A stretch of DNA of 64,000 bases from Sphingomonas endolithica (GTDB lineage: Bacteria > Pseudomonadota > Alphaproteobacteria > Sphingomonadales > Sphingomonadaceae): positions 2,249,001-2,313,000 of the forward strand of contig NZ_CP103057.1 of the NCBI RefSeq assembly GCF_025231525.1, given 5' to 3'. Below are positions 31,252 to 49,008 of the stretch, one piece after another. A program made the translations under genes and the position numbers. The notes below the pieces were generated by a model. The model made no database searches. It saw only the letters and a program-made list of their open reading frames with translations, and had not been told where the DNA came from. Within the stretch, counting starts at the first letter, position 1; every line of letters begins with the position of its first letter.

Positions 31252-31834
31252 AGAAGCTTCCTTCGTCACGATTCCACTCCATAATCCAGCGCCCGCCGGC
31301 CCGGCCGCCACGCTGGCGCAACAGCTCCACGTCGAGCGCGGCATGGCCCGGCGCATTCGCCTCCAGCGGCACCGACGGCACCGCGCGCACCGCCCAGCGT
31401 GTCGCCGCAGCGCTGGGTGCCGGGGTTCCCGCCACCCGCAGCAGCAAGGCGGTCACCCCCGAGCTCTGCGCCGCCATCGCCAATCGCCGCGTCGCGGTGA
31501 GATCGAGCACGCGAGGATCTTTCCACAGCTCGATCACCACCACGCCGACCTCGGGGCACCGCGCCAGGTCGGCGGCCGCCTTCAGCACCGCCAGCGGATC
31601 GGGCAGGATGCCGATCACCAGGTCGCTGCCGCCCGCGACCAGGTCGAGCAGTCCGGGCAGGTACAACGCGCCGCCCTCGGCATGCGCCTGTTCCTGCCGC
31701 AGCCACACCACCGCCGACGCCTCGCACTCGGCACGGCGCAGCATCATCGCCGCAAACCCCGCCGCGCTACTGGCGTCCGCCGCCTCCAGCGCGAAGATCT
31801 CATGCAAGTGCCCGCGTTCCAGCTCATCCTCCAT
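31142..31834 (-). CDS. imuA: Mutasome protein ImuA
   Basis: The 230-residue protein is RecA-fold-like: LHEIFALEAADASSAAGFAA at the start, SAVVWLRQEQAHAEGGALY, LVIGILPDPLAVLKAAADLA and VVVIELWKDPRVLDLTATRR. It is the first gene of the DNA-damage mutasome operon, and an SOS box lies 76 bp upstream. The last 35 residues (after RWIMEWNRDEGSF) are Gly/Arg/Pro-rich, are encoded entirely inside imuB in another frame, and look unlike the family end. Confidence 0.9.
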   Translation of the reverse strand: MEDELERGHLHEIFALEAADASSAAGFAAMMLRRAECEASAVVWLRQEQAHAEGGALYLPGLLDLVAGGSDLVIGILPDPLAVLKAAADLARCPEVGVVVIELWKDPRVLDLTATRRLAMAAQSSGVTALLLRVAGTPAPSAAATRWAVRAVPSVPLEANAPGHAALDVELLRQRGGRAGGRWIMEWNRDEGSFCEIPQSGGRQSGPPPPGIVVSPAVGRTAAAGRRSAG

Positions 31835-31909
31835 CGATCTCGAGCCCGAGCAAAGTCGGTCGCCCGCCCTGCGAATCACGATGATACGCAGCCGGTCGGC
31901 GACTCACTT

Positions 31910-31924
31910 GTTCACTATTTGTTC
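31910..31924. promoter_or_regulatory. LexA (SOS) box upstream of imuA
   Basis: GTTCACTATTTGTTC is a perfect match to the alphaproteobacterial LexA site GTTC-N7-GTTC and lies 76 bp upstream of the imuA start codon. Damage-inducible control of imuA-imuB-dnaE2 by LexA is well known in Caulobacter and relatives. Confidence 0.85.
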
Positions 31925-31964: not shown

Positions 31965-32345
31965 TTACCCGCAGCGACCGTCGCGGATCGGGGCCGTCCC
32001 GCTGCGGGTCTGCCAGGCGCCATCGGGCGCGCGGTACTTTTCGCCCGGCTGCGTCTGCTGGATCAGGTTGCAGCCGCTGGTGAACGCCATCTGCTCGACG
32101 GTCGCACCGCTCGCCTGCGCGCTCTGCGTGTACTTGGCCTTGCGCTGGATATTGATGTTGCTGACCAGCGCCCGCAACTCGGCCGAGCCGGCGCCGACCA
32201 CGCCCAGATAGCCATCGGGCTGCTCGCCCACCTGCCCCGCCGATCGCGCCGCGGCATAGGCCGGATCGCGCTGCGCCGCTGCCGGAACCGCGAGGCTGAG
32301 AAACGCCGTTGCACCAAAAGCGATCAGGATGGCTTTGCTCGTCAT
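31965..32345 (-). CDS. ydbL: YdbL-family periplasmic protein (DUF1318)
   Basis: The 126-residue protein has a signal peptide (ending VPAAAQR) and the DUF1318 core: AGQVGEQPDGYLGVVGAGSA, ELRALVSNINIQRKAKY and the C-terminal CNLIQQTQPGEKYRAPDGAW. YdbL works with YnbE and YdbH, the trio linked to phospholipid transport to the outer membrane in enterobacteria. It follows ynbE after 1 bp, last in the ydbH-ynbE-ydbL operon. Confidence 0.88.
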   Translation of the reverse strand: MTSKAILIAFGATAFLSLAVPAAAQRDPAYAAARSAGQVGEQPDGYLGVVGAGSAELRALVSNINIQRKAKYTQSAQASGATVEQMAFTSGCNLIQQTQPGEKYRAPDGAWQTRSGTAPIRDGRCG

Positions 32346-32346
32346 G

Positions 32347-32550
32347 TTAGAAAATCCCCGGATTCTTCTCGATCAGCGACTTGGCCTGGCTATCCAGCCG
32401 ATACACCACTTGTTGCGTAACGTTGATATTAAGATTGATTTCAATCGGCTTATCAGGCGCACTAATACTCACGCATCCCGTCGTCGCGATCAATACGCCT
32501 ATCAAGCTCGATCTCATCATCTTGCGATGTTTGGTAACCGGCCTCGTCAT
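32347..32550 (-). CDS. ynbE: YnbE-family lipoprotein
   Basis: The 67-residue protein has a lipobox (LIGVLIATTGC), then the conserved PDKPIEINLNINVTQQVVYR and the end KSLIEKNPGIF. YnbE is an outer-membrane lipoprotein thought to stack with the C terminus of YdbH to bridge the envelope. The ATG at 32550 has GAAGGA upstream; ATGs at 32520 and 32517 would give a shorter signal peptide. Confidence 0.88.
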   Translation of the reverse strand: MTRPVTKHRKMMRSSLIGVLIATTGCVSISAPDKPIEINLNINVTQQVVYRLDSQAKSLIEKNPGIF

Positions 32551-32563
32551 CTTCGATGGTCCT

Positions 32564-35500
32564 TCATGGCATGGGGTCGCTTGCGGCAGGCTGAATGGAA
32601 CTGATCGGTGGAGCGAGTGGCTCGGCGCGGAGTCCGGTCGCGTTCTGCTGTTGCAGCAGCGCCGGCAGGTTGCGCTCGATCAGCCGCGAGGGATCGTAGA
32701 AGGATTGTGTCGCATCGATCAGCCCGCGGAACGGCGCGCGGATGCGGATGTTGAAGACGAAGGGCAATTTCTGCAGCCGACGGACCAGGAAGTTCGATTT
32801 CGCGCCCTTGCCCTGGCTGATGCCGGCAAACCGCACCTCGGTGATCATCTCGCCCGCCAGCGGGCCGTTCATGGTGATGGCAAGATCGCGATAGTCGATC
32901 GAGCGCAGCGCCTGGAAGGCGATGTTGCCCCAGATGCCGAGATCCTTTTGCGTGAGTTCGCCGACATAGGCGATGTTGCCGCCGCCCGGCCGCACCTTGA
33001 GGTGCCCGCCTTCGATCCGCCCGCCCGTCGCGTCAAAGATCATCGGCAGGGTGCCGTCGAAGGTGCCCGTCGCACTCAGATTGCCAAAGTCGAATTGCTG
33101 CAGGAATTGCGCGGCATTGACGGCCTGCAACTCGAACGTCAGTCGGCGGTCGCGGGCGCCGGCCAGATCGAGCATCGTCGGTTGCAGCACCAGCGTGCCG
33201 CCCGCGAACGGCCACCGCCCGCTCGCCACATGCACCCGGCTGTTCGCCAAGGTACGATAGACGACGCGACCGTCGGTGACCGGTATGCCAGGATTGATCG
33301 ACGCCACCGTCGCGACCTGATCGGGGGCGCTTTCCAGCGCGAGCAGATCGGTGAAGCGGATCGTGCCGGCAAGCCCGGCGACCGGGCCGAAGGCGGCGGC
33401 CAGATCGAGCCCGTCGGTGCGGAAGGTGCCGGTGCTGGTGACGCCTTGTGCCGTCCAGTCGATCCGCGCGTCACCCGAGATGGCGCCACGCACATCGGCG
33501 ATCACGCCATAGGTCATCGGCGTCAGGTCGTCCGGCTGGAATGCATCGTCGAAGGCAAGTTTGGGGACGGCGAGTGTCGCCCGCCCCGTGTCGCTGCCGA
33601 GATCGTGCTTGATCGTGACGTCCGCCACGTGAACCGACTTGCCCGGCACGGCGAGCGCCGCAGACGCATTGATCGCGCCGCCGACGAGCCGCAGCTGGAC
33701 CGCATCGGCATGCAATGGCTGGAACCGCGCCTTAGCAGCGGAATCCGCCACGTCGGCGGTGCCGGACAACGCTAATGCGTCGTCTTTCATCCGCCAGTTG
33801 CCGCCCGCGTGCGAGATCAGCAACGGCACCTTGCCGATCTGGCCGCCTGCTTGCTCGAAACGGCCGCCCAGCCCCGCTGCGGACACGGCACCGGCGAGCC
33901 GCCCGACGTCCAGCCGAGTCACCGACTCGCCTTGGCCGAGCCGCACCGCAACGTCGTGCGCGGTGATGCCGCCCGAGTTCAGCGAGAAGCGGGCATCATC
34001 CGCCGCCAAGGTCAGCGGCGTGGATCCCAGGCGGCCCGCCAGACGAAGCATGGGCGCACGGCCCTCCACATCGATCTTGCCCCCCGCGACACGCACCAAG
34101 GCGGCGCCGCTCGGGCACAGCGGCACGCTTCCGCTGCGCAGGCGCAACGTGGATAGGGCGAGTTGATCGTAGGACAATGTGATACAGTCCGGGTTGAGGC
34201 TCAGCACCCCCGCGCCGTTCCACGCCGCCTCGAGCGGCAGACGCAGGCCCTCGACACGTCCGTCGGCTAGCGGGCCGGAGAGCGTCGCGACGGTCGCCAT
34301 GCGCCCGCCAGCGCCATCGGCCGTAAAGCGTACCGGATCGAGCGCCAGCCGGGCACCCCCGGCGGCATAAGGGAGGATCGTGGCGACGCCGTGGATCGGC
34401 CCGCGCGACCGAGCCTGGGCAAGCCGCACCGTCACCGACGGCAGGCCGCCGCCCGACAGTCGTGCGATGCCCGCAATCGCCGGCATCGTGCCCCAGGCGA
34501 AATCGACCGGACGATCGGGTGCGAAGCTGGCGGCGGCACCGGATCGCGCCATGCTGTCGACGCGCGAAAAGGTGATGCCGCCGCGGGTCAGGGCAAGGTC
34601 GGCGGCGACATCGAAGTCACGGCCGGCAACCACCACCGCGTCGCTTGCCCGGGCGAGCAGCGGAGCGATCGGCGTTGCCGGTGCGGCTTGCCCCTGGCGG
34701 CGGATGGCGGCGAGCATGGTCGCCGGGAGCGAGATGCCGTCCGCCCGGGCGCGACCGGCAAACCCCGGATCGCGGCCCAGGCGATAGCGTCCGTTCAATG
34801 CCAGCGATCGTGTAGCAATCCCGCGGAGCGTGGCCGGTCCGCTCACTAGCGCCACCTTTCCCGTGGTGGTGGCGGCAGTACCGGCAAAGGTGATCCTGCC
34901 CCTCGCCTGGCTGACCGCGAGCGATGATGCGGCGAGCCGCCCGGTACGCAGCGTGGCGCTGCCCTGCCAATGGGCCATGCCCGCAGACAGGCTCGCCGCC
35001 AGGTCGATGGCGACGCGCTCGGCGGTGGTGCCGGGGCACAGCAGTCGATCGGCCATGAGCGGACCCGACAGGTGCACCGCGGCCCTGGTTGTCCAGACCA
35101 TGGTCGCCGCGCCCACGCCGCGCACCAGGCAGCCACCCGCCGTCAACTGCCGACTTGCTGCCTGCAGCCGCCCGCTGAAGCCATGGTCGAGACGTCCTTG
35201 GCCGGTGAGCGCAAGATCGACGATCCCCGCCGGCACGGTCAGGTGCAAGCGGCCGTCCGTGACTTCAAGGTCGATCGCCGGCAACCGGAACGTGCCGCCG
35301 CCGGTGGACTGAGGCAGAAGCCGGTCGATCGCGCCCAGCGACAATGTGCCCCGGACGAAGGCTGCCCGCAGCCGCAGGCCGCCGGCGCGCACGCCGGTCA
35401 CCCGCGCGCCATCCAGGCCGATATGCGTGCCAAGCTCCAGCCAGTCGGCGGTGAGATCCGGGCGGGCCGGATCGCCGACCACCACATCGATCAGCCGCTG

Positions 35501-35743
35501 CCCTCCGAAGCCCAGATCGACGATGCGGTAGCGCGCCTGCACATGTGCCTGCGCCAGCTTGCGATCGATCACCGCGGTGGTGATCGACCGCCGCTCCAGC
35601 CAGAGCCCGACCAGCGACGCCGACACGAACAATGTCGCCGCACCACCGATGCGCAGCGCGCGCCTCCTGTGCCACGGCCGCGCCACCTGCTCGTCCGGCA
35701 CCTCGGCCGCTACTGGTTCGCTCCCACTCACGCCCGCTCGCAT
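32564..35743 (-). CDS. ydbH: YdbH-family AsmA-like envelope protein
   Basis: The 1059-residue protein has a short cytosolic N terminus, one transmembrane helix (near residues 30-50) and a very long periplasmic beta-rich region of the AsmA/TamB/YdbH type. It ends with the DctA-YdbH block (GGNIAYVGELTQKDLGIWGN, then FQALRSIDYRDLAITMNGPL) and a Pro-rich tail. These proteins form hydrophobic grooves that carry phospholipid between membranes. ynbE and ydbL follow. The ATG at 35743 was preferred to an upstream TTG (35767). Confidence 0.9.
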   Translation of the reverse strand: MRAGVSGSEPVAAEVPDEQVARPWHRRRALRIGGAATLFVSASLVGLWLERRSITTAVIDRKLAQAHVQARYRIVDLGFGGQRLIDVVVGDPARPDLTADWLELGTHIGLDGARVTGVRAGGLRLRAAFVRGTLSLGAIDRLLPQSTGGGTFRLPAIDLEVTDGRLHLTVPAGIVDLALTGQGRLDHGFSGRLQAASRQLTAGGCLVRGVGAATMVWTTRAAVHLSGPLMADRLLCPGTTAERVAIDLAASLSAGMAHWQGSATLRTGRLAASSLAVSQARGRITFAGTAATTTGKVALVSGPATLRGIATRSLALNGRYRLGRDPGFAGRARADGISLPATMLAAIRRQGQAAPATPIAPLLARASDAVVVAGRDFDVAADLALTRGGITFSRVDSMARSGAAASFAPDRPVDFAWGTMPAIAGIARLSGGGLPSVTVRLAQARSRGPIHGVATILPYAAGGARLALDPVRFTADGAGGRMATVATLSGPLADGRVEGLRLPLEAAWNGAGVLSLNPDCITLSYDQLALSTLRLRSGSVPLCPSGAALVRVAGGKIDVEGRAPMLRLAGRLGSTPLTLAADDARFSLNSGGITAHDVAVRLGQGESVTRLDVGRLAGAVSAAGLGGRFEQAGGQIGKVPLLISHAGGNWRMKDDALALSGTADVADSAAKARFQPLHADAVQLRLVGGAINASAALAVPGKSVHVADVTIKHDLGSDTGRATLAVPKLAFDDAFQPDDLTPMTYGVIADVRGAISGDARIDWTAQGVTSTGTFRTDGLDLAAAFGPVAGLAGTIRFTDLLALESAPDQVATVASINPGIPVTDGRVVYRTLANSRVHVASGRWPFAGGTLVLQPTMLDLAGARDRRLTFELQAVNAAQFLQQFDFGNLSATGTFDGTLPMIFDATGGRIEGGHLKVRPGGGNIAYVGELTQKDLGIWGNIAFQALRSIDYRDLAITMNGPLAGEMITEVRFAGISQGKGAKSNFLVRRLQKLPFVFNIRIRAPFRGLIDATQSFYDPSRLIERNLPALLQQQNATGLRAEPLAPPISSIQPAASDPMP

Positions 35744-35853
35744 AAAGGCAGCATCGTCGAGCGGCAACGCCCGGGGAGTTACCCCGGAATCCCTGGTTAA
35801 GTGCCACCTCGGCAGACGCCGGCATCCTCAAGGCAGAGGCATGACAATGACAT

Positions 35854-36450: not shown

Positions 36451-37635
36451 ATGGGGGACGAATCACAATCGCCACCGGCGCTCGAGCCGCTTGCTTACCA
36501 TCGCCTGATCGTCGAGCATCTGCGAGAGAACGAGCCGGAAATCTGGGCCTGGGGCTGCTCGCACCAGACGCGTGACGAGCAGGTGCAGGAAATGCGCTCC
36601 TATCTGTTGCGCGAAACCTACCGCATCGATGCAGCAGCGCACCCGCACGTGCATGAGGATTGCGCCGCCGTGCTCGCAAAGCTGGGGCTCGATGCGCCGG
36701 CAACGCTGTATCAGGCGTCGGACGGGGCGATGAACGCCGCTTTGTGCTTCGTGCCGGGTGAAATCCATCTCCTGTTCCACGGCCCGGTGCTGGAGAAGCT
36801 GTCACGTGACGAGCGCATTGCGTTGCTCGGCCATGAACTTGCACATTACCGGCTATGGTCGATCGAAGACGGCGCCTTTTACGCGGCGACGACGATCCTC
36901 GATCATGCACTGGCCTATCCCGGCGCCGCGCCCAGCCATGTCGAGACCGCGCGACTATATCGGCTGCACACCGAACTCTATGCCGATCGCGGCAGCGCGG
37001 TCGCGACCGGCGCGCCCGATCCGGCAATCGCCACGCTAGTGAAGACGATGACCGGCCTGACGGCGGTCGATCCGCAAGCCTATTTGCGGCAGGCTGCCGA
37101 AGCCGAGAGCGACGCCCGCGGCTCGCAAGGCGACACCCATCCGGAAATCTTCCTGCGCGCCCAGGCACTCGACAAATGGTGGCGCGGCGATGCCGAGACC
37201 GATGCGTGGATCGAGCAGCGCATCCGCGGGCCGCTGTCGATCGCGGCGCTCGATCTGCCACGCCAGCACGAGGCGACGTCGATCACGCGGCGCTTCCTGA
37301 CCCGGCTCTCCGCCGATCCTGCCGCCGATGCCGAAGCGACCGGCAACCTCATTCGTCGCTTCTTCCCGGATTGGCGCGCCGACGAGGAAGCGATCGAGGA
37401 TGCCGCCTTGGCCGGGCGTATCGATGGCCCGTTCCGCGACTATCTCGTCGCGCTCAGCCTCGATGTCGCGATGGCCGATCCGGACGGCCGGGATGCGATG
37501 CTCACTGCCGGCGCGCGCCTTGCCGCAAGCTATGACGGCGAAAGCGCGTTCCGCGCGGCGCTGAAACGCGATCTGAAAATGACGAAGGCCGCGATCGAGC
37601 GCGTCTTCTCGCCGCTCAAGAAGGCATCGGCATGA
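36451..37635 (+). CDS. M48-like cytosolic zinc protease, partner of the large helicase
   Basis: The 394-residue protein has an M48-type active site: HELAH at residues 128-132, the third zinc ligand in ELYADR (Glu175), and an M48-like THPEIFLR block at 229-236. There is no signal peptide or membrane segment, unlike HtpX or Oma1, so it should act in the cytosol. The C-terminal 150 residues are helical. The start at 36451 follows AGGA. Its stop overlaps the start of the 1808-residue helicase gene by 4 bp, which indicates a coupled two-gene unit. Its substrate is unknown; the partner protein is one possibility. Confidence 0.82.
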   Translation: MGDESQSPPALEPLAYHRLIVEHLRENEPEIWAWGCSHQTRDEQVQEMRSYLLRETYRIDAAAHPHVHEDCAAVLAKLGLDAPATLYQASDGAMNAALCFVPGEIHLLFHGPVLEKLSRDERIALLGHELAHYRLWSIEDGAFYAATTILDHALAYPGAAPSHVETARLYRLHTELYADRGSAVATGAPDPAIATLVKTMTGLTAVDPQAYLRQAAEAESDARGSQGDTHPEIFLRAQALDKWWRGDAETDAWIEQRIRGPLSIAALDLPRQHEATSITRRFLTRLSADPAADAEATGNLIRRFFPDWRADEEAIEDAALAGRIDGPFRDYLVALSLDVAMADPDGRDAMLTAGARLAASYDGESAFRAALKRDLKMTKAAIERVFSPLKKASA

Positions 37636-40600
37636 GCGAGGGCGATCCCGTCACGCTGGCGCAGCACCTGGCCGAAGGCAGAGTGCTGCCCGCCGAGGAC
37701 CTGCTTCACGTAATGCTGCCGCTGATGCGCGCGGTGGCCGCACTGCATGCGGCAGAGCGCGTCGCCGAGCTTGGTGGCGATGCGGTAATCGATTGTGGGA
37801 ACGGCCGGCTGGCGCTGGCGCAGCCTGACGGGCGCCGGCCCAGCTACGACGAAGCACGCCTGCGGGAGGTGCAACCGCCGCCAGGATCGGCACTGCGCAT
37901 CGTCGGCGAATATCGCGTCTCGACCGGTGTCGATACCGGCAGCAAGGTCGAGGATCTGCGCGCGCGTGGCGATCAGGAGGAGACGGCGTTCAAACCGGCT
38001 TACCTCACCGGCTATCGCGCGTGGGAACAGGCGATCGGCCATCACGACGAGCAGACCGACATCTTCGTCATCGGCCTGATCCTCGCCAGCCTCGCCTGCG
38101 GGCTGGACCTGAACGACGTGGAAGACGTCGCGCGTTTCTCCGGCGCGCAGGGCAATCTGTTCCGCCTTAACGACGCGCTCCATCCGGTGATCGCTGCGCT
38201 AATCGGCGAGATGACCGCGCTCAACCGTCACGAACGGGCAAGCGATCTCGCCGCGCTCGCGCAACGGCTGGAAGATTATCGCGACCAGCCGGCCGGTATC
38301 GATGTCGAGCGCGCGCTGGCTGCGGCGACGGGCACGAAGGGGCGCCGCGGCGCGGTGCTCACGCATTTGCGCGACCGGCTGTTCGATCTGTCGCGCCGCA
38401 ATCGCCTGATCCACTTCCGCCCGACCCAGGCCAGCGTGAACCTCACCGTTGCCAGCGTGCCGGTGGTGATGCGGCTGGAATCGATCGGCGGCGATCAGCT
38501 GTGCAGTTGGAACGGCAAGTTCGCCGCCGACATCCTGGGCGGTACCCAGATCCCGCTCGCCAAATGGCTGCGTTTCGAGGACCAGCCCTATCTGCCGTCC
38601 GCCTTCGACCGGATCATCCAGGAGACGCGGCGCGACCGCGCGGAATACGGCTTCAGCCATCTCCGGCTCGTGGTCGCCTTTCTCCACTGGCACAATCTGA
38701 AGGACGCGCCGGCCGAGCGGATCCTGTCGCCCTTGTTATGGCTGCCGGTCGAGGTGATCAAGAAGAAGGGCGTGCGCGATCAATATCTGCTGCGCTGCCC
38801 CGGTAGCGAGGCCGAGTTCAATCCGGCACTGCGGCATTATCTGCGCCAGCTCTACGATATCCGGCTGCCGGAAACGGTCGATCTGGCGCACAGTTCGATC
38901 GAGCAGGTCCATGCCGACATCGCCGCACAGATCCACCGCAGCGAGCCGGGGGTAACGCTAGCAGTCACCGACAAGCCGCAGGTTGAATTGATCCACCAGA
39001 AGGCGGTGCAGCGGCTGAAGCTGTTCCAGCGACGCAAGCAGCGCACCGCGCGGGCCAGCGGCGTCGCACGGCCGGAGTTCAGCTACGAACGCGACGATTA
39101 TCGCCCGCTCGGCCTGGCCCTGTTCGAGAAATATGTCCGCCCGACGCCGCTGCCGCAGCGGCTCGCGGTCGGCGGCCGCATGCCCGCGCGGCCGGACCGG
39201 ATGGTGGCGAACGGCGATGCCGAGGCGCTCACCTACGCGCTCGCCGGCGGCGACGGGCATCGGCACAAATGGGAGATCGATCTCACCCAGGTCACGCTGG
39301 CGAACTTCAACTACAAGAAGATGTCGCTGGTGCGCGACTATAACCAGCTGATCGACGATGCCGTGCCACCGTCGGCGTTCGACCGGATTTTCTCGATCGA
39401 GCCTCGTGAACTGGAAAGCGAAGCACCGCCGGCATTGCCGCTTGCCGAACTCAATTCGGTCGTACCGGCCGACGCGACGCAGGATGCGGCAGTGGCGATG
39501 GCGCGATCGGGCCTCAGCTTCATCATCCAGGGCCCGCCCGGCACCGGCAAGTCGCAGACGATCACCAACCTGATCGCCGACTATGCCGCGCGCGGCAAGC
39601 GCGTGCTGTTCGTCTGCGAAAAGCGTGCGGCGCTGGACGTGGTGTTCAACCGCCTGCGCTCGGCGGGGCTCGATCGCTTGTCGTGCCTGATCCACGATTC
39701 GCAGGAGGACAAGAAGGCCTTCGTCCACGATCTGAAAGATAGTTATGAGCGCTGGACCAAGCAGGACGATGCGCTCGATGCACAACAGGCGATGCGCCAG
39801 CGCACGATCGACGCGCTGACGCGGCACCTGGAACGCATCACCGCGTTCGAGACCGCCACCAGACGTGTTCCGGAAGCGACCGGCGCCAGCGTGCGCGCGA
39901 TGGTTCGCCGCCGCGCTGCCTTGCCCGAAGTCCAGCCACTCGGCCCCGCCGTGCGCGAGCGCCTGCCGCTGCTTACCGAATGGGACACGCATCACGCGCT
40001 GGTCCAGCGCATCCACCGCACGATGATCGAGAGCTTCGGCGTCGCCAGCTTGGCCGAGCATCCGTTCGCCCGGCTCGCCCCCGCAATGGTGGCGAGCGAT
40101 CGCGCTTATGCCGAGGCCGAAGCGGCGATCGCCGAAGGCGAGCGGCTGATCGACCTGCTCGATGCAGCGCTGGAGGATGGCGCCACCCTGCTGTCTGCCG
40201 ACACGCGCCTTGCCGACGCGCTGCAGCTGGTGCGCGCGGCACGACGTGCGATCGACACCAATCTTGCCGGCAATCTGGCGCTGCTCGATCCGGCATCGGC
40301 GCTGTCCGGCGATTTCGCCGCCGGACGCCTCTCGCTCGATCGCGCGCATGACGAGGCAGAGCTTGCCGCCGCGGCTGCGGTCAATTGGCGTGAGCCGTTG
40401 ACGCCCGACGATACCGTAGCGGCGCTGGATCAGGCGCGACGCCAGGAGCCATCCTTCTTCAAGTTCTTCAGCGGTGCCTGGCGGCGGCTGAAGCGTACGG
40501 TGCGCGAGCGCTATGATTTTGACGCCCATGCGGTGGAACCCAGCGTTACCGTCGTGCTCGAACGACTGGCCGCGCGGCATGCCGCCGCCGCCGCCGAGAC

Positions 40601-43058
40601 CGACGCGCGCCGCGCGTTTGCCGGGCGCTTCGCCACGCCCGACGCCGAAGCATTGGCCGCCGCCCGCGACGATTGGGCGGGGGCGTCCGCGCCGATGCTG
40701 CGGACGCTGATTGTCCATGCCGGTTCCGCCGCGGATCCCGTCGCCTTGATAGCGCGCGAGGCAGCGCCCGTTGCGCCGGTCGAAGCCTTGGCAGCGCTCT
40801 GCGCACGCTTCCTGACCGTGGCGGGGGACATGGCGATCGGCGCAGTGTCGGAGGCGATCCGGGACATGCGCGAAGGCCTGGAGGAATTGCCGGATCTGCT
40901 GCCACTGCTCGCGGCGGCCGATGCCGCAGGTCCGGGCATTGCCTTTGCCATGCGCACCCTGCCGCTCACCCCGACCGCGATCGAGGCCCATGTGCTCGAA
41001 GAAGCCTTTGCACGCACGCTGCGCGACGAGCCCGCACTGCAGCGCTTCGACGCCGCCGAGCTTGCCTCCGCATCCCGCCGCGCGGCCAAGGCACGCGACC
41101 TGCTCCAGAACGACAATTCGGCGGCCATCCTCGCCACCAACCATCGGCGATTCCGCGATCACGTGAAGCAGTCGATGATGTCGGTAACGCAACTCGATGC
41201 AGTAGGACGCGAGTTCAAGCGCATCTATTCGATCGGCAGGCGCGAGCTGGAGCATGAATTCGGCAAGACCATGCGCTATCGCTCGATCCGCGATCTGTCG
41301 GACGACGAGACCGGGCCGGTGGTGATCGATCTCAAGCCGATCTGGCTGATGAGCCCGCTCTCGGTATCGGACACGCTGCCGCTCCATCCCGAATTGTTCG
41401 ACGTGGTGATCTTCGACGAAGCAAGCCAGATCCCGACCGAAGAGGCCGTTCCCGCTTTATCGCGCGCACCGCAGGTGATCGTCGTCGGCGACGAGATGCA
41501 ATTGCCGCCCACCAGCTTCTTCGCCTCGGCGCGCGACGAGGACGACATGCACGTCACGGCGGAAGAGGATGGCGAAGCGGTAGCAATCATCCTCGATGCC
41601 GACAGCCTGCTCAATCAGGCCGCGCGCAGCCTGCCCGCGAACCTCCTCGCCTGGCATTATCGCAGCCGCTCCGAAGCGCTGATCAGCTTCTCGAATGCCG
41701 CTTTCTATGACGGACGCCTGATCACGATCCCGGATCTGGTGATCGGCAATGCGTCCGATGCGCCTTCGCCGCTCCGTTCGGACGACGCGGCATCCGCGCC
41801 GACGGCGGTCGACCGGCTGCTGGCGCGCGCGATCAGTTTCCATCCGGTGGCGGACGGCATCTATGACAAGCGCATCAACGATCCCGAAGCGCGGCTGATC
41901 GCGGCGATGGTCCGCGACCTGTTGTTTCGCGAGACCGGCCTCAGCATCGGCATCGTCGCCTTTTCGGAAGCACAGCAGACCGAGATCGAAGACGAGCTCG
42001 ATACGCTGGCGGCCGACGACAAGGCATTCGCTGCGCGGCTCGAGGCCGAATATTTGCGCGAGGATGACGGGCAGATCAACGGCCTGTTCATCAAGAATCT
42101 CGAAAACGTGCAGGGTGACGAGCGCGACGTGATCCTGCTCAGCATCTGCTACGCGCCCGACGCCAGTGGCCGCATGGCGATGAATTTTGGGCCGATCAAC
42201 CAGCGCGGCGGCGAGAAGCGGCTCAACGTCATCTTCAGCCGCGCCCGCCGTCACATGGCTGTGGTATCGACGATTCGCGCCGAGGCGATCACCAACACGC
42301 ATAACGATGGTGCCCGCGCGCTGCGCACCTTCCTGTCCTTTGCCGAGGCGCAGTCGCGCGGCGATACTGCGCACGGACAGGCGGTACTGGCGACGCTCAA
42401 TCCCGAGGCGCAACGCGTCTTCGCCCGCCCTGCCCCGGCCGACGCCGTGCGGGACGCGGTAGCGGCAGCGCTGGCCGCGCGCGGCCATGACGTCCGGGTC
42501 GATGTCGGCAGCGCCAGCTTCCGCTGCGATCTTGCCATCATGTCGCCGGGTGGCGGCGGGTATCGACTTGCCATCCTGCTCGACGGGAATGGCCGCGGCG
42601 CGGTCCAGGATCGCTATGTCTTCCAGCCGGCGATCCTGCGCAGCTTCGGCTGGAAGGTGATAGACGTGCCGTCGCACAGCTGGCTGCGTGACCCCGGGCA
42701 GGTGATCGCCCAGATCGAAGCCGCGTTGCACCGTGAACCGGTGGAGGGCGATGACGATCCCTTCGATGGTGCGCCATTGCCGCTGGCCGTGCCGACCGCC
42801 CTCAGCGAGCCAACGGCCGAACCCGCGCCTCAATCGCCACACGAGACCGCGATCTTTAGCGAGTTCCGCTTCCAGCAAGGCAGCTCGGACAAGTTCTGGA
42901 AGATCGCCGTGGCCGATCTGGATGTGACGGTGGTGTTCGGCCGGATGGGAACGAAGGGCAGCACCATGGTCAAATCGTTCGAGACCAATGAGCGGGCCAA
43001 ACGGGAAGCGACCAAGCTGATCGCCGAGAAAGTGCGCAAGGGTTACGTGGAAGTTTAG
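37632..43058 (+). CDS. Giant kinase-like/DUF4011/SF1 helicase/nuclease-like/WGR protein
   Basis: The 1808-residue protein is read in order as follows. Residues 1-225 resemble a protein-kinase C-lobe without HRD or DFG (HHDEQTDIFVIGLILASLAC, then a DLAALAQRL end). DUF4011 begins at about 246 (LRDRLFDLSRRNRLIHFRPT). The SF1 helicase has Walker A GPPGTGKSQT (about 634), DEASQIP (about 1260), VVGDEMQLPP, QGDERDVILLS (about 1492) and RLNVIFSRARRHM (about 1530). A PD-(D/E)XK-like region lies at about 1610-1720 (FRCDLAIMSPGGGGYRLAIL). A WGR domain lies at 1740-1808 (VVFGRMGTKGSTMVKSF). DUF4011-helicase-nuclease proteins are known as anti-phage genes (Hhe class). It is coupled to the M48-like protease. 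Confidence 0.85.
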   Translation: MSEGDPVTLAQHLAEGRVLPAEDLLHVMLPLMRAVAALHAAERVAELGGDAVIDCGNGRLALAQPDGRRPSYDEARLREVQPPPGSALRIVGEYRVSTGVDTGSKVEDLRARGDQEETAFKPAYLTGYRAWEQAIGHHDEQTDIFVIGLILASLACGLDLNDVEDVARFSGAQGNLFRLNDALHPVIAALIGEMTALNRHERASDLAALAQRLEDYRDQPAGIDVERALAAATGTKGRRGAVLTHLRDRLFDLSRRNRLIHFRPTQASVNLTVASVPVVMRLESIGGDQLCSWNGKFAADILGGTQIPLAKWLRFEDQPYLPSAFDRIIQETRRDRAEYGFSHLRLVVAFLHWHNLKDAPAERILSPLLWLPVEVIKKKGVRDQYLLRCPGSEAEFNPALRHYLRQLYDIRLPETVDLAHSSIEQVHADIAAQIHRSEPGVTLAVTDKPQVELIHQKAVQRLKLFQRRKQRTARASGVARPEFSYERDDYRPLGLALFEKYVRPTPLPQRLAVGGRMPARPDRMVANGDAEALTYALAGGDGHRHKWEIDLTQVTLANFNYKKMSLVRDYNQLIDDAVPPSAFDRIFSIEPRELESEAPPALPLAELNSVVPADATQDAAVAMARSGLSFIIQGPPGTGKSQTITNLIADYAARGKRVLFVCEKRAALDVVFNRLRSAGLDRLSCLIHDSQEDKKAFVHDLKDSYERWTKQDDALDAQQAMRQRTIDALTRHLERITAFETATRRVPEATGASVRAMVRRRAALPEVQPLGPAVRERLPLLTEWDTHHALVQRIHRTMIESFGVASLAEHPFARLAPAMVASDRAYAEAEAAIAEGERLIDLLDAALEDGATLLSADTRLADALQLVRAARRAIDTNLAGNLALLDPASALSGDFAAGRLSLDRAHDEAELAAAAAVNWREPLTPDDTVAALDQARRQEPSFFKFFSGAWRRLKRTVRERYDFDAHAVEPSVTVVLERLAARHAAAAAETDARRAFAGRFATPDAEALAAARDDWAGASAPMLRTLIVHAGSAADPVALIAREAAPVAPVEALAALCARFLTVAGDMAIGAVSEAIRDMREGLEELPDLLPLLAAADAAGPGIAFAMRTLPLTPTAIEAHVLEEAFARTLRDEPALQRFDAAELASASRRAAKARDLLQNDNSAAILATNHRRFRDHVKQSMMSVTQLDAVGREFKRIYSIGRRELEHEFGKTMRYRSIRDLSDDETGPVVIDLKPIWLMSPLSVSDTLPLHPELFDVVIFDEASQIPTEEAVPALSRAPQVIVVGDEMQLPPTSFFASARDEDDMHVTAEEDGEAVAIILDADSLLNQAARSLPANLLAWHYRSRSEALISFSNAAFYDGRLITIPDLVIGNASDAPSPLRSDDAASAPTAVDRLLARAISFHPVADGIYDKRINDPEARLIAAMVRDLLFRETGLSIGIVAFSEAQQTEIEDELDTLAADDKAFAARLEAEYLREDDGQINGLFIKNLENVQGDERDVILLSICYAPDASGRMAMNFGPINQRGGEKRLNVIFSRARRHMAVVSTIRAEAITNTHNDGARALRTFLSFAEAQSRGDTAHGQAVLATLNPEAQRVFARPAPADAVRDAVAAALAARGHDVRVDVGSASFRCDLAIMSPGGGGYRLAILLDGNGRGAVQDRYVFQPAILRSFGWKVIDVPSHSWLRDPGQVIAQIEAALHREPVEGDDDPFDGAPLPLAVPTALSEPTAEPAPQSPHETAIFSEFRFQQGSSDKFWKIAVADLDVTVVFGRMGTKGSTMVKSFETNERAKREATKLIAEKVRKGYVEV

Positions 43059-44814: not shown

Positions 44815-45492
44815 TTAAGCGTAGCTGACGGTAGTCTTAACTGCGCTACGACGACGCATGGCGAAGCCGACCGCGCCCATGCCAACGATCATCATTGCCC
44901 ACGTGGCTGGCTCAGGGACGGCGCCGGTGGCAGCGAAGGAGTTGAAGGAGAAGGAGGCCGGGTCAGCGGTGGTGCTGCCGCTGAAGTTAACGCGACCGAC
45001 CGATCCATCGCTGAACGTGCCCGTTAGCGTATTGGCGCCATTGAACAACACGTTGCGGAAATCAACGCTGGCGCTTGGGTTGGCAGTGGTGCCGAAGTTT
45101 ACGCGGAATGCAGAGTAGGCGCCAGGATCGAAGTTAGTCGCCCCGTAGGTCAGCATCGCCGTCTTGGAAGGAAGCAGCGTCTCCGAAGGCGTTCCGACAC
45201 CTGGCGAATTATCAGTGCCGCCGTTGATGGAGCCACCACCAAAGTTGTCGATGTTTGTGATGTTGTAGATCGAGCCACCATCGAGCGTAAGTGCAAGGCT
45301 GGTGAGATACGGTGTTGTGTCAGATCCAGCGGTGGTGTTAGTCACGCGGAACTTGGGCTGATCCACACCGCTGCCTGTGCCATTCGGGCTGCCTAGGTTC
45401 GTGCCCACCTCGACCAGAAACGTACCCGCATAGGCTGGGGCTGCGCTAAGCGTTAGAGCACCGACCAGCGCGGTTGCCATCATTTTCTTCAT
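44815..45492 (-). CDS. PEPxxWA-CTERM sorted surface protein
   Basis: The 225-residue protein has a signal peptide (MKKMMATALVGALTLSAAPA) and a Thr/Gly/Asn-rich beta domain. It ends in the sorting signal VPEPATWAMMIVGMGAVGFA, an Arg cluster, and SAVKTTVSYA. Proteins of this type are cleaved and exported through an exosortase (not in this window) and are often tied to exopolysaccharide. A TTAA-N7-TTAA site lies 36 bp upstream of the ATG, and a terminator follows. Confidence 0.9.
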   Translation of the reverse strand: MKKMMATALVGALTLSAAPAYAGTFLVEVGTNLGSPNGTGSGVDQPKFRVTNTTAGSDTTPYLTSLALTLDGGSIYNITNIDNFGGGSINGGTDNSPGVGTPSETLLPSKTAMLTYGATNFDPGAYSAFRVNFGTTANPSASVDFRNVLFNGANTLTGTFSDGSVGRVNFSGSTTADPASFSFNSFAATGAVPEPATWAMMIVGMGAVGFAMRRRSAVKTTVSYA

Positions 45493-45527
45493 TAAAGTTT
45501 CCCTATCCTACCGTGAGCCAACTTGGC

Positions 45528-45546
45528 GATTAACCTGCTGTTAATC
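45528..45546. promoter_or_regulatory. Palindromic TTAAC-N5-GTTAA site (CtrA-like), gene at 45492
   Basis: GATTAACCTGCTGTTAATC is a perfect inverted repeat and also a full TTAA-N7-TTAA CtrA-type box, 36 bp upstream of the start codon. Related sites precede the other three PEP-CTERM genes. Confidence 0.6.
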
Positions 45547-45730
45547 TTTCCGGTAGTGGAGGAGTCACATGGCGGTCAACGAGGGAAGATGGGGCCATCG
45601 TCTCTTTCTTGAACATTTCTATGCGGTAACAGTAAACAAAAATTAACCTGTGCCGAACTGGCACATAGCCCTTTGCTCTTAGGTGCGACAAGATCAGCGT
45701 CATAGGTCGGAGAGCCGATCGTGCCGTGTC

Positions 45731-45913
45731 TTAGCCTCCCACGCTGACATACGGGTGCGCAGCCCGCACCACCTCGGCAGCCTTCTCGATCGCCGCCAAC
45801 TCGGTGGCGCTGCCGGTCGGGTGGGTCGCCCAGTTCGATTTGACGTTGAACGCGAGCGAGCAGCGTCCCGCGTTCAGCCCGGCAGCGAATAGGCCGCTGC
45901 GGGGAACTATGCA
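45731..45913 (-). pseudogene. C-terminal fragment of an unidentified gene
   Basis: The minus-strand frame ending at 45731 reads LFAAGLNAGRCSLAFNVKSN, WATHPTGSATELAAIEKAAE, VVRAAHPYVSVGG, with coding-like composition. It has no start codon before an upstream TAA at 45914-45916. It looks like the 3' remnant of a deleted gene. The rest of 45493-46003 shows nothing else. Confidence 0.4.
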
Positions 45914-46003
45914 TTATGCCGTGACGAGCCTCGGTTGGAACGCAGCAGTAGCGGCGGCCAACAGCACTAACCAGTCGTAGTCCGAGCCGCTAAGGGCCGG
46001 CTG

Positions 46004-46294
46004 ATGGATTCCCTAATCATCGTGCTGATCGTTCTGGTCGCAGTCTTGCTCATCTCCATCCGTATGGCAGGAGCAGAGAAACGGCGGCGCCAACGGGCGT
46101 GGGCAAGCTACTTCCAACAGCCTGAGCCACAGCATCGCCAGAAAAAGGCGGAGGCATCAACGGCGAGTGCGTTCGGTGCAAGCACCACCTCGACCAGCAA
46201 ACGCGCCAGCACGATGAAGCGGACCCTCTGGTTTGCCATTCCGATCGGCATCATGCTGTGGTGCCTCATCGTTTGGGCGGTGATCGGTCTCTAA
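46004..46294 (+). CDS. Small two-helix membrane protein
   Basis: The 96-residue protein has hydrophobic helices at both ends (LIIVLIVLVAVLLISIRMAG and LWFAIPIGIMLWCLIVWAVI). They are joined by a polar Arg/Gln/Ser/Thr-rich stretch (KRRRQRAWASYFQQPEPQHR). No family is recognised. It converges on and slightly overlaps the small gene on the other strand. Confidence 0.55.
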   Translation: MDSLIIVLIVLVAVLLISIRMAGAEKRRRQRAWASYFQQPEPQHRQKKAEASTASAFGASTTSTSKRASTMKRTLWFAIPIGIMLWCLIVWAVIGL

Positions 46295-46434
46295 AGGTCG
46301 AGCCAGCGGCGCTGGAGCTTAGCAAGTAGCCGACGAGCCTCTGCGCTCGCGCCATCCGTGCGTTGGTATGCCGCCAGCAGATCGGCGCCAGTCATCTCCT
46401 GAATGAACGCCTCGTCAGTGTGCGGCTCGATCAT
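46291..46434 (-). CDS. Small acidic-start hypothetical protein (47 aa)
   Basis: It reads MIEPHTDEAFIQEMTGADLL, then AAYQRTDGASAEARRLLAKL and QRRWLDL, with helical character. An ATG at 46434 is used here; the frame is open to 46482. No family is recognised. Confidence 0.45.
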   Translation of the reverse strand: MIEPHTDEAFIQEMTGADLLAAYQRTDGASAEARRLLAKLQRRWLDL

Positions 46435-46507
46435 GCGGGCACGGTACACTTGCCGTGATGAGTCAGAACGCGCGGACGTCACTTCGCCGGATCATAAGCA
46501 AGCAAAA

Positions 46508-46532
46508 AGCCGCCAACCTTTCGGCCAGCGGC
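46508..46532 (-). terminator. Terminator after the second PEP-CTERM gene
   Basis: AGCCGC and GCGGCT arms enclose a TTTCGG loop and are followed on the minus strand by TTTTTGCTTG, 29 bp past the stop codon at 46561. Confidence 0.65.
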
Positions 46533-46560
46533 TCTCTTTTGCTTGTCTGACGGATGGTGC

Positions 46561-47151
46561 TTACGCGGCGGCGATCGCGCGCACCTTGTTGGTGAAGTTC
46601 ACCTCCGAAACCTTGATGCGACGACGCATCGCAAACCCAACTGCACCCATGCCGAGGATCATCATGGCCCAGGTCGCAGGCTCAGGCACGGCGCCGGAGG
46701 TGGCAAGTCGCACAGTGCCAGGACCAGCGGCCGTCAGTGTGAAGGCGCCCCGATCAGAGTTGGCGTAAGACGTAAAGACAATGTTGTAGGCAGCCCCGGC
46801 GAGGAGGTTGGCCGTGAGCTGAGCGTTGGAGCCGACGCCGCTATCATCATCAACGGCAGTAATATTGGTCAGTGCCGATGATGGGTTAAACGCACCCGTA
46901 TATAGGGACAGAAAATTGTCAAATGCGCTAACGGCATCAAAGGTGTAAGCGCCTGCTGCGTCGACAGTGAACGAGAAGGACTGATAGGCGACGTTCGTAC
47001 CGGCTCCCGACAACGTGGTCGTGGTAAATGCTCGATTGTACGTAGGCGCGGTCGTAGTGTTACCCGAAAAAACTACCGTCGCCGCGTTAGCAGCACTGCC
47101 GAAAGACGCGGCTAGAACAACAGCAGCCCCAATGTTACGGATCATCTTCAT
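46561..47151 (-). CDS. PEPxxWA-CTERM sorted surface protein
   Basis: The 196-residue protein has a signal peptide (MKMIRNIGAAVVLAASFGSA, then ANA). Its beta domain resembles a prepeptidase-type fold (FTVDAAGAYTFDAVSAFDNF, LSLYTGAFNPSSALTNITAV, DDDSGVGSNAQLTANLLAGA). The sorting end is VPEPATWAMMILGMGAVGFA plus RRR. The tail after the arginines (IKVSEVNFTNKVRAIAAA) is longer than in its neighbours. Confidence 0.9.
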   Translation of the reverse strand: MKMIRNIGAAVVLAASFGSAANAATVVFSGNTTTAPTYNRAFTTTTLSGAGTNVAYQSFSFTVDAAGAYTFDAVSAFDNFLSLYTGAFNPSSALTNITAVDDDSGVGSNAQLTANLLAGAAYNIVFTSYANSDRGAFTLTAAGPGTVRLATSGAVPEPATWAMMILGMGAVGFAMRRRIKVSEVNFTNKVRAIAAA

Positions 47152-47195
47152 TTTAGGTCCCCTCTGTGCCTCGCACAGCGCGGGGCTGTTGGTGT

Positions 47196-47214
47196 TGTTA
47201 ACCTGCCGTTCACC
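47196..47214. promoter_or_regulatory. TTAAC-N5-GTTCA site, gene at 47151
   Basis: TGTTAACCTGCCGTTCACC is nearly identical in its core to the site at 45528 and lies 45 bp upstream of the start codon. The surrounding gap 47152-47784 holds no convincing gene. Confidence 0.5.
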
Positions 47215-47667
47215 AAAAGAAAACGTCTTTTCTCGATCTTATTCACGCCTGTTCCATTTCGTCACAGAAGCAGGCGCCGGCGGTAGGCGCTGTCGTACTT
47301 GAACGGCTAGCGGCCGAACTACGCGGTGTACCCTCCAACCCCGTCGAGACCGTCGCCCCAACAAAAAGGGATGGCGGTAACCAGATCATTCGGGAGGCCG
47401 GTGACGAAGTTCTTTTACCCCAACCGGCACAAGGCAGGCCAGCCGCAATACGGGGCGCGCGCTCGGCTGCGTTGCACCCGATTACTAGCGACGGCCTGGA
47501 ACTGATCGCCCCAGCACGGCGCGCCGCTATGATCCAATCGTCGGCAGAAGATAGGCCAGAGTGCAGGCGCGCTGGGCACCTCCGAGGCACTGCGCTCTAG
47601 GTTTAGGTGGCGTTAGGTGTGGCCAAATAGACACGACGGGCCGCTATCGTATTAAATTTGTAAAACT

Positions 47668-47686
47668 GGTTAACAATTGGTTGCGA
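47668..47686. promoter_or_regulatory. TTAAC-N5-GTT site, gene at 47785
   Basis: GGTTAACAATTGGTTGCGA carries the same core, 99 bp upstream of the metalloprotease start codon. Confidence 0.45.
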
Positions 47687-47784
47687 GGAAGTCCGGCGCG
47701 ATTAGAAGTTACGGTGAATCGGCCGCTGCAGCCGTACGATCTAATTGCTCGTTCAGCACCGGTCAAACTACAGGGGGAAGCGAA

Positions 47785-49008
47785 ATGCTCAATATGAAGA
47801 CTAGACTGGCAGCAGCTGCGGCTTTGGCGATGGTGATCGGCACGCCAGCGATGGCTAGTGTGACGTTTCAGCTGGTTGATTACAATGGCTCTGTGACCGG
47901 CACGGCTGCTGCACAAGGTTTCAAGATTGCAACCGACTATTGGGCATCGGTACTGACGACGTCCGCCGACGTAGGCGATGTGACCGTCCGCCTAGAGACT
48001 GGCTACAATCCTCTAGCCACCGGCGTGATCGGGTCGACCGGCAGTACGCGTTATCTCGTGGGCACTTCAGACATTTATGAACAACTCGGTGCGACTGGTG
48101 TTGGGGCGCTTGACGCAAAAGCAAACGCCAGTCTGAGCCCGCTCACTGCTGCAGGTGATCTCCAGGCGATTACCAGTGGCTATGGCAATCCTGCTACGAA
48201 ACTTGGCGTCGACTGGACGACCAAGATCTTCGACAACGACGATAGTCTCAACAATACTCAGATGGTTGTTAATGGCGCGACGTTGAAGGCCCTGGGTTAC
48301 ACTGGATTCAACCCTGCCCAGCGTGATGCGCAGGTCAACTTTAGCAGCAACTTCGCCTTCGATTTCAACCCAACTGACGGCATCACGGCTGGCACTTTCG
48401 ATTTTATCGGCGTCGCCATCCATGAAATCGGCCACGCGCTTGGCTTTGTCAGCGGCGTCGATCAGTATGATACCGGCAGCGCTACAGGGTTTAATCGCGA
48501 CGCAGGGGGCGCGGGTGGCTTCTCCACGCTCGACCTGTTCCGCTACAGCGCCGACTCTACGAACATCGCACCCGGCACCGGACCGGCGCTTGACCTCGCA
48601 GTGGGCTCCGCAGCCTATTTTTCGATTGATGGGGGCCAGACCCAATTCAACGGTAGCTCGCTGTTCTCGACTGGTCGCAACCGTGGCGATGGCCAGCAGG
48701 CCTCGCACTTTAAGGATTTAGGCGGTTGCACCGGGCAGATCGGCATCATGGACCCAAACTTCTGCTTTGGCCAAATGGGCGAAGTGAGCGCGACCGATCT
48801 GGCGGCGTTTGATGCCCTAGGTTGGAACCTCAAATTCGACGTTTTGGCGAACACAGGCTACAAGGTTACGTCTGCCGACATCTACACCCAGTTTGCACAG
48901 TCCGTCCCGGAGCCCACCACATGGGCGATGATGCTGGTCGGCTTCGGCGTGATCGGTGGGGCCATGCGCCGCCGGGGTAAGGTCAAGACGACCGTCAGCT
49001 ACGCATAA
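47785..49008 (+). CDS. NF038122-type metalloprotease with PEP-CTERM signal
   Basis: The 407-residue protein has a signal peptide (MKTRLAAAAALAMVIGTPAM) and a zinc-protease motif AIHEIGHALGFVSGVD. The region NFCFGQMGEVSATDLAAFDA, then LGWNL, is the metzincin-like end, as in the NF038122 PEP-CTERM metalloproteases. It ends VPEPTTWAMMLVGFGVIGGA, RRR, GKVKTTVSYA. GGGGGAAG precedes the ATG at 47785. It is presumably sorted to the surface and acts outside the cell. Confidence 0.9.
   Translation: MLNMKTRLAAAAALAMVIGTPAMASVTFQLVDYNGSVTGTAAAQGFKIATDYWASVLTTSADVGDVTVRLETGYNPLATGVIGSTGSTRYLVGTSDIYEQLGATGVGALDAKANASLSPLTAAGDLQAITSGYGNPATKLGVDWTTKIFDNDDSLNNTQMVVNGATLKALGYTGFNPAQRDAQVNFSSNFAFDFNPTDGITAGTFDFIGVAIHEIGHALGFVSGVDQYDTGSATGFNRDAGGAGGFSTLDLFRYSADSTNIAPGTGPALDLAVGSAAYFSIDGGQTQFNGSSLFSTGRNRGDGQQASHFKDLGGCTGQIGIMDPNFCFGQMGEVSATDLAAFDALGWNLKFDVLANTGYKVTSADIYTQFAQSVPEPTTWAMMLVGFGVIGGAMRRRGKVKTTVSYA

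Follow-up and report, generated by a model that had tools for sequence, protein, structure and literature searches.

What would a metalloprotease do when its gene runs into that of an 1808-aa helicase? The question arose from a sequence-only reading of a 64,000-nt stretch of DNA (the window, meaning the whole stretch that was analysed), which lies with the gene pair on one 4.09-Mb contig of the Sphingomonas endolithica genome. That reading had described an M48-like protease with HELAH and ELYADR motifs, a 4-bp overlap with a giant protein containing a kinase-like part, DUF4011, SF1 helicase, nuclease-like and WGR regions, and, as a possible new defence design, activation of the protease by the helicase. 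The protease gene (P0001, 394 aa, 36451–37635) and the giant gene (P0002, 1808 aa, 37632–43058) are indeed both on the plus strand and overlap by 4 bp, and the closest relatives of the pair carry Sphingomonas labels. Our analysis of the pair and its fused relatives suggests a helicase-controlled protease, possibly acting in virus defence.

The protease retains its zinc site and active-site plug

The 394-aa protein matched Pfam M48 above the cut-off, and its catalytic residues were invariant in its family. The HELAH zinc/catalytic motif (residues 128–132, 36832–36846, with H128, E129 and H132), the third zinc ligand E175 together with D179 in the ELYAD segment (36973–36987), and H230, P231 and R236 of the HPX4R motif (37138–37158) were each present in 75/75 split-family proteases encoded beside the best 80 of 117 giant matches; these 75 rows represent 73 loci, the window and L005, the last apparently being the same locus as L041. 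In a study of the M48 protease BepA, HPX4R is described as the M48 active-site plug, its histidine is the fourth zinc ligand, and a plug mutant was read by the authors as deregulated (PMC7950410). With both the zinc site and the plug retained, the window protease looks active but is probably latent.

The window protease differs from M48 proteases such as BepA (PMC7950410) in being paired with a helicase, in lacking a strongly hydrophobic segment and in its C-terminal domain. This domain (residues 269–394, 37255–37632) is helical in the predicted structure and may be TerB-like, given a weak hhalign match between the split-protease C-terminal domain and the TerB part of the fused proteins described below (E 1.2e-4, probability 55). 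None of the listed PDB matches covered it, and the PADLOC models gave no match to the 394-aa protease. At one locus the pair is preceded by an additional, incomplete M48 protease copy (L101:184-726).

The giant joins a pseudokinase lobe, DUF4011, an SF1 helicase and a degenerate nuclease domain

Pfam matches to DUF4011, AAA_11/AAA_12, MTES_1575 and WGR bore out the earlier domain description of the giant. The kinase-like part (about residues 21–218, 37692–38285) proved to be a kinase C-lobe only, with no N-lobe, and the HRD and DFG motifs of an active kinase were absent in 47/47 aligned rows. It is followed by DUF4011 (residues 249–404, 38376–38843) and the SF1 helicase, whose Walker A GPPGTGKS (residues 634–641, 39531–39554) and Walker B DEAS (residues 1262–1265, 41415–41426) mark the motifs GPPGTGK and DEAS that were invariant in 78/78 giants among the best 80 of 117 matches. 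The MTES_1575 domain, a PD-(D/E)xK-like fold identified by Pfam (residues 1608–1699, 42453–42728), has Leu1649 aligned with the catalytic Glu.

The C-terminal WGR domain (residues 1745–1807, 42864–43052), a domain that binds a DNA end or break, was detected by Pfam in 54/79 giants from the same best 80 of 117 matches. It was not detected in the other 25 (for example L053, L054, L057, L059–L062, L100 and L106), which comprised whole groups such as the Variovorax and Cellulomonas rows plus a few broken or cut rows, including L104, with WGR in a broken-off frame, and L108, whose sequence is cut. Pairing with the protease was kept in giants without WGR.

Protease and giant form a conserved two-gene unit

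A search of the giant against one genome per species yielded 77 loci, spread over four phyla, from the best 80 of 117 matches, and 73 of these have a gene of the same M48 family directly before the giant in the same orientation. Of the four exceptions, L099, L102 and L105 end at a contig edge, and in L097 the 2.1 kb of upstream sequence gave no sign of the protease. The suspicion that homologues of the giant mostly lack the protease gene was thus not the case, and the two-gene unit proposed from the window alone is a conserved one. With automatic start choice, the overlap was exactly 4 bp in 36/73 pairs. Protease and giant distances were tightly correlated (Mantel r 0.966 for 74 pairs, compared with a best value of 0.12 in 500 permutations), and the correlation remained at 0.937 after pairs above 75% identity were removed.

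The same linkage was apparent in genome samples. Among 199 genomes of the family, the protease occurred in two and the full-length giant in the same two, with 29 more genomes giving partial helicase matches only. Among 398 genomes of the phylum, a profile of the giant's N-terminal kinase lobe matched in three, all of which also had the protease, and the protease profile matched in four, the fourth being a fusion protein (G379). DUF4011 itself was commoner (33/249 genomes). A set of 48 loci that match DUF4011 or the helicase, made up of 28 short loci from partial matches and 20 fetched ones, gave no match to the protease, kinase-lobe or WGR profiles; their flanks are short, and their genomes were also covered by the genome-wide protease and kinase-lobe searches.

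Relatives carry the protease and the helicase in one chain

The G379 fusion is a single 2073-aa protein composed of M48, TerB, DUF4011, SF1 helicase and MTES_1575 parts. Its first 480 residues, used as a query, retrieved 181 proteins at E<=1e-3, and 111 among the 120 listed were fused proteins of at least 1800 aa, with record names including Gilvimarinus, Marinagarivorans, Denitratisoma and Polyangium; some records were named tellurite resistance. Pfam flagged M48 and TerB in some of the fused proteins only; the zinc-site residues were nevertheless present in 110–111 of the 111, and the helicase motifs in 111/111 aligned proteins. Split and fused proteases were homologous over their catalytic domains (hhalign E 9e-31). 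Proteins that are encoded side by side in some genomes and fused in others are classically taken to be coupled, and the M48 protease and the helicase, neighbours in the split family and fused in these relatives, follow that pattern.

On its 115-kb contig, the G379 gene has GajA and GajB genes 174 bp downstream, and the 20 kb fetched around it contained a phage-type integrase and a transposase-like gene. Two other fused loci (L202 and L203) adjoin Hda and M1 aminopeptidase genes, and PADLOC gave no match for the five neighbours inspected there.

Helicases linked to the protease lack the nuclease Glu

In the MTES domain of the split giants (best 80 of 117 matches), the two Asp residues were kept in 75/78 rows each, and the position of the catalytic Glu was occupied by Leu in 73 rows and by Glu in none of the 76 readable ones. 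In the 111 fused proteins, the MTES Asp was replaced by Pro in 88 and was still Asp in 15, and Leu, Met, Val, Phe, Ile or Gln stood at the Glu position (Glu in 0/109 readable rows). In contrast, the D-E-D site was intact in 38/40 protease-less helicases, scored from a set of 41 of which one could not be aligned at the MTES site, and read D-I-D in the remaining two (L183 and L184). Loss of the nuclease site thus goes together with presence of the protease and is rare elsewhere; the nuclease domain of the giant is predicted to be catalytically dead. The Glu-to-Ile change in L183 and L184, both protease-less DUF4011 loci, means that site loss also occurs without a protease.

A helicase tree separated split, fused and classical groups with support of 99–100, and placed the split and fused groups together with L185 on one side (support 99.8). 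A tree with split and fused proteins as a sole clade was not rejected (p-AU 0.264), but L185, a long-branch row, sits among them, so that the protease link may have had one or two origins. In evolutionary terms the contrast between nuclease and protease thus amounts to one or two events, not 200. We read this pattern as a probable swap of the nuclease output for a protease, leaving a helicase that would unlock a protease. L185 itself (L185:4759-11055) resembles the giant in that a kinase domain precedes its DUF4011 helicase, but its kinase has HRD, its MTES D-E-D is intact, and no protease profile matched in the 14.5 kb fetched.

Genomic context points to horizontal movement of the pair

We compared the 10-kb flanks of ten relatives with giants 58–84% identical (L034–L038, L041, L044, L072, L073 and L083) with 31 ORFs of the window, and the pair genes were the only two that they had in common with it. 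Six of them (L035–L037, L044, L072 and L083) had a context common among themselves. Alpha-, beta- and gammaproteobacterial proteins were intermixed in the giant tree, although contamination of some assemblies is possible; this mixing of classes points to transfer, and the pair appears to move horizontally. GC content of the pair was 0.64–0.70 per full kb, similar to that upstream, and was lower downstream (0.57–0.61).

A search for an empty site found ydbH in 6/7 other genomes (7/8 with that of the window) and the opposite flank in 2/7. In the six stretches fetched, the sole matches out of the 31 window ORFs were the ydbH and ydbL genes, which stay together there; these names we give to the ydbH/ydbL-like genes at 31965–35767 on the minus strand of the window. 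The flanks of the nearest relative had one homologue in the window's genome, at 2.18 Mb, the other flank matching distant paralogues only, so that no empty site was shown. The protease had no match in plasmid and phage collections and one short match in viral contigs, where the long ORFs contained neither motif.

The neighbourhood itself was not enriched in defence genes. In 55 loci, PADLOC models matched at most 11/195 (5.6%) of the nearest neighbour ORFs at E<=1e-15, compared with at most 4/85 (4.7%) of the farther ORFs of the same loci, both figures being upper values because counts were made per model. Among the first 110 neighbours, housekeeping Pfam families were the most frequent, namely regulators, TonB receptors and dehydrogenases. 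The idea that the pair might sit in core positions with no defence neighbours thus had a mixed outcome: the positions were sporadic and changing, but defence matches were no more frequent next to the pair than farther away.

No conserved third gene or small substrate ORF was found beyond single clades among ORFs of at least 100 aa within 6 kb (55 loci) or of at least 30 aa within 900 bp (73 loci). A 600–770-aa protein encoded convergently just after the giant was considered as a third gene of the system. It was present in 13 alphaproteobacterial loci (for example L039:15439-17277), of which L005 and L041 are probably the same and L055 is labelled Rhizobium; two copies scanned had no Pfam match. 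It was rejected as a system component, being confined to Alphaproteobacteria and without a match in the window's genome.

Comparison with known systems

The closest named models to the giant are anti-phage ones. PADLOC scored it at 665 bits for PDC-S37 (best stretch 214–1342 of 1550), 303 for Hhe and 124 for MkoA, and the NCBIfam models gave 695 bits against a cut-off of 1500 for antiphage_ProA (NF058533), presumably the Prometheus system, and 453 bits against 2000 for Hhe (NF042953, "DUF4011 domain-containing anti-phage protein"). Scores below the NCBI cut-offs make the giant a relative rather than a member of these anti-phage proteins, in keeping with the earlier remark that it departs from the Hhe description. 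Like the giant, Hhe combines DUF4011, an SF1 helicase and an MTES_1575/Vsr-like fold in one large protein; the window giant differs in adding a pseudokinase, WGR and a conserved protease neighbour, and in having Leu1649 at the Glu position of the Vsr/MTES_1575 site, which is D-E-D in protease-less relatives. ProA and PDC-S37, the top-scoring named models, matched mainly over the helicase–MTES part. The 48 protease-less DUF4011/helicase loci, some of which may be ProA or PDC-S37, differ from the pair by D-E-D in 38/40 and by the lack of any protease, kinase-lobe or WGR profile match, although one of them, L185, has a kinase domain of its own.

DUF4011 helicases in named anti-phage models are already known, and M48 proteases have long been known. 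The few designs known for bacterial immune proteases include trypsin pairs in Hachiman/AVAST and caspase–nuclease loci (PMC12799240) and a CHAT protease in CRISPR III-E (PMC10952713). Hachiman/AVAST nuclease–protease pairs likewise join a protease to a sensor with a helicase (HamB); in Hachiman, a trypsin-like serine protease fused to HamA, whose nuclease motif is lost in the fusions, activates a separate MBL-fold pro-nuclease (PMC12799240). These fusions are a precedent for decay of a nuclease in a branch that carries a protease. The window pair differs in using an M48 metalloprotease and in having no conserved third gene among the loci scanned. The accessible portions of the open-licence literature on DUF4011 described no protease partner, and no title on an M48–DUF4011 helicase pair was among the open-licence matches listed. 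None of those titles dealt with a coupling of the two that comes both as a gene pair and as a fusion and goes with decay of the nuclease.

Proposed role and alternatives

Domain make-up, coupling, fusion and the state of the active sites are observed; beyond these we infer a physical complex of the two proteins that is gated by nucleic acid, with ligand, substrate and an anti-phage role as follows. The pair would be a horizontally moving two-gene system built on a DUF4011 helicase of the SF1 type that carries a pseudokinase lobe and, mostly, WGR. The helicase would recognise an abnormal nucleic-acid structure, for example replicating phage DNA, and use ATP; the signal would pass via the pseudokinase/DUF4011 part, and contact with the partner would displace the HPX4R plug of the latent M48 protease. 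The freed protease would cut phage or host proteins and stop the infection, the nuclease output of DUF4011 relatives having been exchanged for proteolysis. Anti-phage defence appears the likeliest role, judging from the nearest named models and from one fused member that adjoins Gabija. Several results speak against it: the lack of defence enrichment, the two fused loci beside Hda and M1 aminopeptidase genes, the absence of plasmid and phage matches, the lack of a conserved third gene for the protease to activate among the loci scanned, two related M48–TerB proteases that follow SbcC-like genes, the protease-less locus L097, and a nuclease/protease contrast that may reflect one or two events. 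This whole reading, a mobile helicase-gated M48 protease acting against phage with an exchanged nuclease output, we favour tentatively, at a little under an even chance. The broader claim, that a DUF4011 branch swapped its nuclease for a latent M48 protease in two formats and turned sensing of foreign nucleic acid into regulated proteolysis as immunity, seems to us possible but more doubtful. Of the defence design first proposed, the helicase–protease link is thus supported by coupling and fusion, defence enrichment is absent, and the role is drawn from relatives. If the reading is true, the almost one-to-one link between a metalloprotease and an SF1 helicase would add another design to the known immune proteases, and, given the loss of the former nuclease Glu, nature would have provided a clean experiment on how one effector replaces another.

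A serious though unlikely rival is accessory repair, in which the helicase would meet a DNA–protein crosslink, with WGR on the DNA end or break, and the M48 protease would digest the protein, much as SPRTN and Wss1 digest DNA–protein crosslinks in eukaryotes. An SF1 helicase, an active-looking metalloprotease, WGR and a nuclease predicted dead would all suit such a machine. In the class of G379 we found four stand-alone M48–TerB-like relatives (TerB by Pfam in L205), and in two of these, from one genus, the M48–TerB protease lies directly after an SbcC-like gene (L205:4185-8566 and L207:9334-13670; SbcC-like by Pfam in L205 and by likeness to L205 in L207). These proteases are 28% and 31% identical to the G379 N-terminus, and SbcCD processes protein-blocked ends, which is what makes the repair role a serious rival; however, a third genome of the same genus (L204) has other neighbours. 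Also against repair, the alphaproteobacterial LexA-type box occurred upstream of 2/69 pairs versus about 0.8 expected from shuffles, and two other box types upstream of 0/69, so that SOS control of the pair was rejected. Patchiness (2/199 family and 3–4/398 phylum genomes), the 25 giants in which WGR was not found, and anti-phage models as nearest named relatives argue in the same direction. A bacterial helicase–protease machine for protein-blocked DNA would be equally valuable, because it would resemble SPRTN-type repair of eukaryotes.

Quite improbable is that the protease serves as an on-switch, trimming the giant (or some other protein of the host) and so releasing the helicase or a residual activity. 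The near one-to-one pairing with co-inheritance and the HPX4R plug motif would fit it. But the 111 full-length fused proteins (among the 120 listed of 181) carry protease and helicase in one chain, so that trimming by a separate enzyme is not general, and the giant has lost its nuclease Glu; self-cleavage is compatible with both observations.

We give still less weight to a general stress or protein quality-control module without a phage tie, in which a helicase-like ATPase would regulate proteolysis. Housekeeping neighbours, the lack of defence enrichment, TerB in the fused relatives and the tellurite resistance names of some records are in line with it, whereas a sporadic two-gene block in changing positions, and a helicase part closest to anti-phage models, are not. 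Nuclease defence of the usual Hhe/PDC-S37 type, with the protease as a chance neighbour, is suggested by the PDC-S37 and Hhe bit scores but is very improbable. The adjacency and the residue counts already largely refute it: scores are under both NCBI cut-offs, none of the 76 readable split giants has the catalytic Glu, and 73/77 loci have a protease.

Other features of the window

On the minus strand, the window also carries what by eye resembles an imuA–imuB–dnaE2 mutagenesis cassette (26135–31879). The putative imuA promoter has an alphaproteobacterial LexA-type box at 31910–31924, one of two matches in the window, where 1.35 are expected. At 44815–49008, three PEP-CTERM-like proteins recognised by eye are encoded near each other, and the last of them (47677–49008), with its HEIGHALGF motif, resembles a secreted metalloprotease.
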